A stretch of DNA of 49,348 nucleotides, taken from positions 1 through 49,348 of IMG/VR virus record IMGVR_UViG_3300046507_000289. One strand, given 5' to 3'. Made by a program: the position numbers and the translations under genes. Each line of letters starts with the position of its first letter. Positions within the stretch are counted from its first letter, which is position 1. Below are positions 9,352 through 11,770 of the stretch, piece after piece. Under the pieces are notes generated by a model. The model was given only the letters and a program-made list of their open reading frames with translations. It was not told the origin of the DNA and searched no databases. The stretch is from a virus.

Positions 9352-9363
9352 TGGTAGCGGTTT
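9352..9363 (-). repeat. Arm-type repeat 2 (inverted copy)
   Basis: Reverse complement of AAACCGCTACCA, ending exactly at the 3' terminal base of the tRNA CCA. Between repeats 1 and 2 lies a small hairpin CCGAT-ACCAA-ATCGG (9330-9344). Confidence 0.6.
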
Positions 9364-9437
9364 GGTGGGCGGGGTGGGTATCGAACCCACGACCATTCGA
9401 TTAAAAGTCGAATGCTCTACCACTGAGCTACCCGCCC
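9363..9437 (-). tRNA. tRNA-Lys (anticodon UUU)
   Basis: Complete cloverleaf on the minus strand: acceptor GGGCGGG / CCCGCCC, D arm GCTCAGTGGTAGAGC, anticodon stem TTCGA / TCGAA around loop CTTTTAA, T arm GTGGG-TTCGATA-CCCAC, discriminator A and encoded CCA (9363-9365). It stands between D and the integrase gene, so it is probably both a functional tRNA and the attP core, the host target being a tRNA-Lys gene. A full copy, not just the 3' end, is present. Confidence 0.93.
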
Positions 9438-9650: not shown

Positions 9651-10892
9651 ATGCTGACCGACTCCCAAGTGAAGAAAGCCGTATCCAGCGCCCGCGCCGA
9701 TGCCGTCCTGAACGATGGCGCGCAAGGCAAGGGCGGCGGATCGCTGCGCCTGAAAATCCGCGTTGGCGCACGCGGCACGACGGCCACCTGGTTTGCCTGG
9801 TGGCAGGAAGGCGGGAAGCCGAAGACCGCGACGCTGGGCCGTTACCCTGACCTGTCGCTGGCCGACGCCCGCGTGGCGGCTGCCAAGGCTGTGGCCGATG
9901 CGAAGAACCCGGCACCGGCCCAGGTCGAAGAGTCGAACCGCACCGTGGCAAAGCTGTTCGCTGGGTACATCAACAGCATGCGCCAGGACGGCAAAAGCAG
10001 CGCCGATGAAGTCGAAGGCCGCCTGGCCCTGGCTTCCGCCGCGCTGGGGCCGGACAAGCCAGCGGGCGACGTGACGCCCGCCGACATTGCCGCCGTCCTG
10101 AAACCAATTCATGACCGTGGCGCGCGGGTCATGGCCGACCGCATGCGGGCCTACCTGTCGGCAGCCTTCAACTGGGGCATTGAGGCTACGCACGACTACC
10201 GGGCCAAGGTCCGCCAGGACTGGGGGATTAAGGTCAATCCGGCTGCCCAGGTGAAGCGCGACACGAAGGCGAACACGACCCGCGAACGGCACCTGTCGGC
10301 GGACGAACTGGCGACGCTGTGGGCGGCCATGGACGGCGCAGGATTCGCGGACGGCACCGGGGCGGCTATCCGGCTGATGATCTGCTGCGGCCAGCGCGTG
10401 CGGGAAACCATGCGACTGGAAGGCCGCGACATCGACCTGGAAGCTGGCCTGTGGACCATGCCCGCGAAGAAGACGAAGGGCGGCAAGTACCGCCACACGA
10501 TCCCGCTGCCAGCCCAGGCGCTTCCAATCCTGCGCCAGCTGATCGCCAAGCACGGCGACGGCTGGCTGTTCCCTGCCCGCCACGGCGAAAGCGACCTGCA
10601 GCTGGCGTCATCCATCGGCAAGGCCATCCGGCGCTGGCTGGTCGAGAATGGCGGCGAACGGTTCCAGGCCCGCGACCTGCGCCGTACCTGGAAGTCCCGC
10701 GCTGGCGACGCTGGCGTGGACAGGTTCGTGCGCGACCTGATCCAGCAGCACGCGAAGAACGACACCGGCAGCAAGCACTACGACCGCACCGACTACCTGC
10801 CGCAGATGCGCCAGGCGATGGCGACCTGGGAATCTTGGCTATCGGAAAACGTTACCGATAGGAAAAATCAATCACACGCGCTGGCGGCGTGA
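9651..10892 (+). CDS. int: Site-specific tyrosine integrase
   Basis: A 413-residue tyrosine recombinase. Residues 1-~90 are the DUF4102 arm-binding domain (MLTDSQVKKAVSSARADAVLNDG..LRLKIRVGARGTTATWFAWW, GRYPDLSLADARVAA). A core-binding helical domain follows, then the catalytic domain with GQRVRETMRLEGRDI (first Arg), RHTIPLPAQALPILRQL (Lys strand), FQARDLRRTWKSR (Arg box; the usual His of HDLRRT is Arg) and KHYDRTDYLPQMR (Tyr nucleophile). It should integrate the phage at a tRNA-Lys gene. ATG 9651 is used; no strong Shine-Dalgarno sequence is visible. No excisionase is recognisable nearby. Confidence 0.93.
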   Translation: MLTDSQVKKAVSSARADAVLNDGAQGKGGGSLRLKIRVGARGTTATWFAWWQEGGKPKTATLGRYPDLSLADARVAAAKAVADAKNPAPAQVEESNRTVAKLFAGYINSMRQDGKSSADEVEGRLALASAALGPDKPAGDVTPADIAAVLKPIHDRGARVMADRMRAYLSAAFNWGIEATHDYRAKVRQDWGIKVNPAAQVKRDTKANTTRERHLSADELATLWAAMDGAGFADGTGAAIRLMICCGQRVRETMRLEGRDIDLEAGLWTMPAKKTKGGKYRHTIPLPAQALPILRQLIAKHGDGWLFPARHGESDLQLASSIGKAIRRWLVENGGERFQARDLRRTWKSRAGDAGVDRFVRDLIQQHAKNDTGSKHYDRTDYLPQMRQAMATWESWLSENVTDRKNQSHALAA

Positions 10893-10895
10893 TGG

Positions 10896-11270
10896 CATAA
10901 TGCAACTTCACTGATGCGCAAGTACGTTGAAGCCAGTAGGGAACGCCTAGCAAGTACCGAAAACGACGGAACCGAACGCCCTATATGTGAGCCGAGGACG
11001 GAAGGCAGATGCCGTGACAGCCTGGAAAGACAGGCATTCCCGATAAGCGCATTGCGTGCAGTGCTTTTATCGGGTCTGGATGACGGTTGAGGGTACTCAA
11101 GACGGACCCCGTAAATGTCTAGCTGAACCCCAGGTTGGCGACCACAAAGCCTGACTGCTTGGAAAGACAGGCTCCAAACACCTTAAACGTGAATCGGCAA
11201 TGACGCAGGAAGCCTGCCGAGCCGCGCCGGAAACCGGCACAAGAACCCGCCTTCGTGGCGGGTTTTTCGT
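10896..11270 (+). ncRNA. Putative structured noncoding RNA with intrinsic terminator
   Basis: This stretch of ~375 bases between integrase and the next cassette has no credible gene. It begins near a -10-like CATAAT (10896-10901) and ends in a strong terminator. Between are many stable hairpins: GCCTG-GAAAGA-CAGGC (11020-11035); CCCGATAA..TTATCGGG (11039-11074) with inner GCATT/AGTGC; TTGAG-GGTA-CTCAA (11087-11100); GCAGG-AAG-CCTGC (11205-11217); GCCGG-AAA-CCGGC (11226-11238). GGAAAGACAGGC occurs twice (11024 and 11161). I see no match to tmRNA, RNase P, 6S or self-splicing intron cores. The class is unknown; a long leader of the following cassette is the alternative. Confidence 0.45.
11244..11270 (+). 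terminator. Intrinsic terminator ending the putative RNA
   Basis: ACCCGCC (11245-11251), loop TTCGT, GGCGGGT (11257-11263) followed by TTTTCGTTT. Confidence 0.88.
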
Positions 11271-11279
11271 TTGTGCTGC

Positions 11280-11297
11280 GGAAAAACCACCAGAGGA
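11280..11297 (+). repeat. 19-bp gene-boundary repeat, copy 2 (18 of 19 bases)
   Basis: GGAAAAACCACCAGAGGA then T, just after the terminator and 71 bases ahead of the ATG at 11351. Noncoding here. Confidence 0.85.
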
Positions 11298-11350
11298 TGC
11301 GGCGGGTCAAACGCGGCACCATGGCTGAATCAAATTCACTGTGGGCCATC

Positions 11351-11770
11351 ATGACCATTCAACTTTCTACCCTCGTCCGCAACGCGCGCCTGGATGCCGT
11401 CGAAGTCCAGGCTGGCGTATCCCCGAAGCTGCGCCTGTATTCCGGTGCGCAGCCAGCCAACTGCGCGGCAGCCCGCACCGGCACGCTGGTCGCTGAAATA
11501 ACCCTGCCCGCTGACTGGGCCGCAAACGCCGCCAACGGCAGCAAGACCCTGGCAGGCGCTTGGGCTGGCGTGGGCGCTGCCGCTGCAGGCACCGGCACAG
11601 TGGTGGGCCACTTCGCGCTGATGGATAACGCGGGCACCACCTGCCACATGCAGGGCAAGGTCGGCGCTACCGGCGACGGCACCGCAGACCTGACCCTGGA
11701 CAACGTGAACGTTGCCCAGAACCAGGCGGTGAACATCACCAGCTGGACCCTGACGGACGCGAACGCATGA
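11351..11770 (+). CDS. Small virion-like protein, first gene of the post-integrase cassette
   Basis: A 139-residue protein, mostly beta-strand, with the pattern TLVRNARLDAVEVQAGVSPKLRLYSGAQPANCAA, then LVAEITLPADW and a Thr/Gly-rich second half ending VAQNQAVNITSWTLTDANA. I know similar short proteins from other phage genomes, where they sit beside fibre or adhesin genes. In-frame upstream starts exist at 11297 and 11321; 11351 is preferred because the homologous pattern starts with MTIQLS. None has a clear ribosome binding site. The gene overlaps the next by four bases (ATGA). Probable structural role; no specific function assigned. Confidence 0.65.
   Translation: MTIQLSTLVRNARLDAVEVQAGVSPKLRLYSGAQPANCAAARTGTLVAEITLPADWAANAANGSKTLAGAWAGVGAAAAGTGTVVGHFALMDNAGTTCHMQGKVGATGDGTADLTLDNVNVAQNQAVNITSWTLTDANA

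Follow-up and report, generated by a model that had tools for sequence, protein, structure and literature searches.

Two phage RNA families new to Rfam in a noncoding stretch behind an integrase gene

The noncoding stretch that follows a tyrosine integrase gene in the IMG/VR virus record IMGVR_UViG_3300046507_000289 (positions 1 to 49,348 of that record, all 49,348 nucleotides (nt) of which we call the window) carries two small RNAs, named here E2 and core1, that are phage RNA families new to Rfam. That E2 is a real RNA family we regard as very nearly certain, and comparative analysis shows for it a predicted pseudoknot in which two stems, A and C, cross and the loop words are invariant. For core1 a predicted hairpin is shown in the same way, and a pseudoknot is likely. 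New here are the RNA family and the fold it adopts; as a kind, structured phage RNAs with no known function have been seen before. An earlier note had read positions 10896 to 11270 as one possible new structured RNA of no recognisable class. Structure and lack of a match held up, neither family having any match in Rfam 15, while the single RNA gave way to a string of at least four separate modules. The two RNAs and their predicted helices are as follows.

11072..11130, + strand: E2 RNA, pseudoknot (alignment A1, pair counts, model R1)
11072-11076 with 11105-11109, + strand: E2 stem A, GGGTC with GACCC
11091-11094 with 11127-11130, + strand: E2 stem C as found in the window, GGGT with ACCC
11077-11080 with 11118-11121, + strand: E2 possible loop pairing, TGGA with TCTA
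10988..11037, + strand: core1 RNA, candidate pseudoknot and hairpin (model R2, alignment A2, pair counts)
10991-10993 with 11004-11006, + strand: core1 short stem, GCC with GGC
10998-11001 with 11012-11015, + strand: core1 crossing C stem, ACGG with CCGT
11020-11035, + strand: core1 3' hairpin, GCCTG-GAAAGA-CAGGC

Covariation in E2 and core1

Hairpins are present in the stretch by inverted-repeat search, as the earlier note had seen. Folded whole, the single sequence is just mildly better than shuffles (z -1.76 on the + strand, with 3 of 100 shuffles as good; z -1.72 on the - strand, with 6 of 100), which alone would not justify a claim, and it is therefore the comparison with homologues that decides. 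Using positions 10860-11400 as query, blastn returned short, weak matches in unannotated parts of Caulobacter phage CcrPW and Rhodobacter phage RcZahn, further matches in Leclercia and Acetobacter plasmids, and more under a looser limit. These split into two groups, and core1 and E2 were therefore treated apart. Pattern scans of IMG/VR found core1 in 20, then 39 viral contigs and E2 in at least 119, and a scan of bacterial genome contigs added 42 for E2, some of them chance matches in genes. The E2 search pattern, which fixed CTGGATG, CAAGACGG and AATGTC, yielded 163 places, 113 of them distinct and with at least four pairs in stem A; removal of L301 and L329 by eye as chance matches left 111 E2 loci, or 78 without near-identical ones, which together with RcZahn form the 79 distinct rows of alignment A1, the window first. 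For core1, 33 of the 37 listed non-redundant places, chosen by pattern, were taken into the 33 rows of alignment A2. Among the matches listed for a relaxed core1 pattern, nearly all were chance matches in genes and one, L134, was judged real by eye.

In A1 the 5-pair stem A crosses the 7-pair stem C, and together with a possible loop-loop helix the two hold standard pairs in 89.5% of cells. Cells changed on both sides number 237, as against 74.8 in shuffles (0 of 500 reached this count) and 25-66 when the partners were slid, and with the loop helix left out the covariation score is 0.581 vs 0.158 in shuffles. Double changes occur at 4 of 5 pairs in stem A, which is conditioned in that rows were required to have at least four of its pairs, and at 6 of 7 in stem C, which was not used in row selection. 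In an unconditioned check on 29 distinct places, stem A had at least four pairs in 28 and stem C had 5 in 25. Stem C also contains G-U pairs, which suits an RNA better than a site in DNA. In the loop helix UGGA/UCCA pairing reaches 98.4% but double changes are zero, and we therefore list it as possible only. Two further scans left the first two of the fixed words free in turn: CTGGATG still stood at 41 of 42 places, and CAAGACGG at all 29 of 29. Model R1 gives 52.5 bits for the window's E2, the sole match in its record. By eye, columns 15 and 57-58 of A1 also vary together, CACGA-like letters accompanying GATGA and CACCA accompanying GATGG; the pseudoknot leaves this further covariation unexplained.

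In the predicted 3' hairpin of core1, whose stem flanks GARAGA, all 5 of 5 pairs show double changes in A2, and the whole structure has 29 double-change cells vs 8.6 in shuffles (0 of 500). The GCC/GGC stem shows little covariation, with one GUC/GAC row, and ACGG/CCGT is invariant in A2 because the search pattern fixed those letters; model R2 gives 71.3 bits on the window's core1, a match by construction. The same hairpin recurs 3' of E2 and of other modules in many loci, and the twice-occurring word that the earlier note had picked out belongs here: GGAAAGACAGGC is found exactly twice in the window (11024-11035 and 11161-11172), each time as the core of a repeated 21-nt hairpin element whose two copies are 90% alike. 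With one mismatch allowed, two matches were reached in 3 of 100 shuffles. The idea that core1 is a degenerate copy of E2 is not supported, as R1 finds no E2 (E up to 0.1) at the 47 core1-side loci besides the window.

Searched by covariance against Rfam, the window gives only transfer RNA (tRNA) at gathering scores. No Rfam 15 match lies over E2 in the window region or in six E2 loci (E up to 5), none lies over the 50-nt core of core1 in 20 core1-side loci, and the phage records inspected carry no RNA annotation of either. No description of E2 or core1 was found in open-access PMC, sequence words included; papers elsewhere or supplementary motif lists could hold one. Covariation in homologues, on which the earlier note had made its proposal depend, is strong for E2 and for the core1 hairpin. 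That note had also thought of GOLLD and ROOL, structured RNAs carried by phages that have no known function and often lie close to tRNA islands (PMC12286853). Neither matched positions 10860-11400 (E up to 5). E2 and core1 share with them a phage habitat and a structured RNA, but GOLLD and ROOL are large cage-forming RNAs; in both a single RNA runs to several hundred nt, a length reached neither by E2 (~60 nt) nor by core1 (~50 nt), and the whole unit is ~360 nt.

Distribution and genomic setting

Each E2 locus carries a single copy by R1 (89 of 89), and so does every one of the 22 virus or phage records searched over their full length; one of the 4 bacterial genomes included in that search has two copies. 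A role as array punctuation was rejected on the one copy per locus, which argues against it. By R2, full-length core1 is likewise single-copy in all 18 core1 records searched, CcrPW among them. The window carries both, and the two rarely share one phage: E2 is clear in 2 of 20 core1-carrying records (L176 and L208, included as known carriers of both), with one more weak match, E 0.007, that is probably chance. Hosts of E2 and core1 are Proteobacteria, in N4-like lytic phages, temperate phages, and plasmid-borne and prophage loci, and E2 additionally occurs in contigs of other phyla, e.g. Acidobacteriota. E2 is rare in bacterial genomes: under stricter filters and with the seed counted, it is present in 2 of 294 from the family of a Herbaspirillum seed and in 2 of 199 from the phylum of an Acidobacteria seed. 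One E2 query against 5426 complete E. coli genomes matched solely strain 21AR0133, where E2 lies in a ~900-nt noncoding stretch running from a repressor gene to a ParB-excisionase-integrase operon.

Flanks sufficed for neighbour scoring, with our own crude gene caller, at 98 of the 111 E2 loci. No coding open reading frame (ORF) overlaps E2 in 92 of these 98, and the nearest gene is a median of 241 nt away on the upstream side and 358 nt on the downstream side. An integrase-like ORF lies upstream by phmmer in 11 of 111 loci, a lower bound, and at 8 of those 11 the next predicted gene is convergent. A sigma-70 promoter score of at least 8 was reached by 12 of 92 non-redundant E2 upstream sequences, vs 1.8% of the 1840 windows used as controls. 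The distance from the end of the -10 box to CTGG is 10-11 nt in 9 of the 12, and +1 would therefore lie on the first bases of stem A. Same-strand tRNA genes end 0-8 nt before the E2 start in 6 of 111 loci vs 5 of 3330 control places, and a tRNA lies within 1 kb in 31 of 111 vs 14% of controls; in the N4-like phages RiverRider and Pokken, E2 is inside a tRNA cluster. Two tendencies are thereby shown, closeness of E2 to tRNAs and a preferred 5' end at stem A's first bases, be it a transcription start or a tRNA 3' end. At locus L177, which has a good -10 box, E2 comes directly 3' of an ORF and is followed at once by a hairpin with a T run and then by a convergent gene.

Another recurring feature is a hairpin of the type we call P0, ending on the 5' strand of stem A in 31 of 111 E2 loci, window included, vs 84 of 2260 controls. 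Its 3' strand shares bases with stem A (11039-11109 in the window), and the two therefore compete and are mutually exclusive. Such exclusion might let the RNA switch, or be cut at P0.

The stretch and neighbouring phage RNAs

9651..10892, + strand: tyrosine integrase gene, directly 5' of the stretch (ORF; PHROG phrog_1 integrase, E 1.9e-59)
10896..10901, + strand: possible -10 box CATAAT where the integrase gene ends, putative start of the noncoding transcript (reading of the sequence)
10893..10987, + strand: 5' module (similarity to the near relative L014, by eye)
11039..11074, + strand: P0 hairpin CCCGATAAGCGC...GCTTTTATCGGG (inverted repeat)
11152..11173, + strand: second copy of the hairpin, TGACTGCTTG-GAAAGA-CAGGCT (direct repeat; hairpin scan; partial R2 match)
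11180..11240, + strand: 3' module before the terminator (similarity to L014, L150 and partly L264, by eye)
11241..11267, + strand: intrinsic terminator (11-pair stem, T tail)

The layout agrees with the earlier note on two further points. The stretch is gene-free, its + strand having no ORF of at least 60 amino acids inside 10893-11270 (the longest, at 10914-11090, has 58), and the strong terminator is there, an 11-pair stem with its T tail. The alternative named in that note was an mRNA leader that continues past this terminator; in the window the next gene lies 3' of the terminator, and a + strand ORF of 171 amino acids starts at 11255, inside it. By eye, ATAAT-like words stand at the same place 3' of the integrase in relatives including L009, L014, L221, L264, L267, L305 and L317. 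In the window a tRNA-Lys (9363-9437, - strand) lies between a tail gene and the integrase and is a possible attachment site.

STnc100 (RF02076) and YrlA (RF02553) share phage arrays with core1, but their matches lie beside core1 and not over its 50-nt core, and YrlA scores below the gathering cut-off. In CcrPW (L003) positions 1718-2012 match the permuted transfer-messenger RNA RF04321 (90.4 bits) in the tRNA cluster next to core1, unannotated there. The phage array at L011 341-1400 has tRNA-like RNAs resembling YrlA below the gathering score, at whose borders the words TTTGCGTGGCG and GTTCCCGCA recur. Enterobacterial phage noncoding arrays of 0.9-1.2 kb (L012 4660-5560, L018 8700-9800, L030 5900-7100, L333 3800-4720) contain further modules closed by GTTGTGG...CCACAAC stems, some of which match STnc100. 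On an Acetobacter persici plasmid (L005), core1 has tRNAs around it and a type I-E cas6e gene nearby.

A possible role in trans and its alternatives

Our best explanation of the whole, held with moderate confidence, is that the stretch would be a short autonomous noncoding transcription unit of a temperate phage, ~360 nt long, supplying small RNAs that act in trans. The unit would start at or just 3' of the end of the integrase gene and end at the terminator at 11267, with RNA modules strung together and joined by the recurring hairpin. E2 and core1 may then be released as small RNAs, and the fixed loops of E2 may grip some conserved part of the host, for instance RNA polymerase or the ribosome. 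That the unit is autonomous and noncoding is probable; trans action on a conserved host machine we put forward only tentatively.

Several points weigh against this explanation. The downstream gene is co-directional in 81 of 97 E2 loci, where a role in cis is possible. The promoter of the window's own unit is weak, a consensus promoter scan finding none at the CATAAT of 10896..10901, and stem C in the window has internal mismatches; in RcZahn the same place is a perfect GGGTTC/GAACCC. Nothing significant emerged from comparison with E. coli 16S, 23S and 5S ribosomal RNA, RNase P RNA and 6S RNA. Mimicry of these host RNAs was accordingly rejected, the best case, in rnpB, agreeing with TAAATGTCCACGAA at 11 of its 14 bases, at about chance level for the 45 segment-target pairs (an estimated ~0.5 expected). 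All the evidence, moreover, comes from sequence.

An alternative we consider unlikely is that E2 is a cis antitermination RNA like HK022 put, modifying RNA polymerase to pass terminators in untranslated arrays and early operons. Put, ~70 nt long and close to its promoter (PMC9378689), opens an early phage transcript, and E2 is similar in size and at times in position. E2 stands at +1 behind promoters, its place in the E. coli prophage resembles that of putL, and in some loci terminator-like hairpins follow directly 3' of it, e.g. in RcZahn L002 and L214 (both by eye) and L243. A promoter in register, as for put, is seen in 9 of 92 upstream sequences, and this position is not general. In the 6 loci with an adjoining tRNA, however, E2 lies behind the tRNA and not at a start. 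Put consists of two stem-loops, whereas E2 has crossing stems and also occurs behind tRNAs and before convergent genes; the word pseudoknot is absent from the paper on put (PMC9378689). The L177 unit ends after E2, and with the next gene convergent at most integrase-linked loci there is therefore no downstream gene to lead there, making a leader or antiterminator role behind integrases unlikely.

A 5' cap structure, in which the knot shields phage RNAs from 5'-dependent decay, seems quite unlikely. Promoters or tRNA ends do place a 5' end at stem A, yet a mere block needs no three invariant loop words, and many E2 have neither a promoter nor a tRNA end directly upstream.

It is quite unlikely, too, that E2 is a small self-cleaving ribozyme trimming phage RNA arrays, in the manner of theta ribozymes 3' of phage tRNAs. 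A compact pseudoknot with fixed loop bases would suit such a ribozyme, as would the 6 loci directly behind tRNA 3' ends. Theta ribozymes are compact phage RNAs directly behind tRNAs, described within +/-5 nt of them (PMC10879173). Unlike theta ribozymes, E2 often starts at +1 and has no Rfam match, ribozyme models included. The +1 start argues against 5' self-cleavage, since a cutter of its 5' side would have nothing to cut, and one copy per phage is odd for a trimming element. The fold of the hepatitis delta virus (HDV) ribozyme, to whose kind theta ribozymes belong, is a nested double pseudoknot, with P3 inside P1. The strand order of E2, A-C-A'-C', is unlike it, and no hairpin nested in stem A is supported by the A1 pair counts, so that HDV-like nesting was not seen.

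Already disfavoured and hardly credible is the view that the stretch works as DNA, for instance as integrase arm sites or as a hot spot of recombination: inverted repeats do adjoin the integrase gene, but the pseudoknot covaries with G-U pairs, just the 11 of 111 loci noted above have an integrase-like ORF upstream, and promoters stand in register with E2.

Returning to trans-acting small RNAs, a broader version, which is speculative and doubtful at present, would have E2 act across phages as an RNA that, with no protein, inhibits or reprograms a universal host machine (RNA polymerase or the ribosome), with core1 a second, convergent solution that different phages use instead. Such alternative solutions would explain the single copy of each and their rare sharing of one phage. 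The invariant loops across such varied hosts imply a conserved partner, and E2 is short enough for direct probing, mutation and pull-down, bringing a phage-host RNA interaction within reach of experiment.
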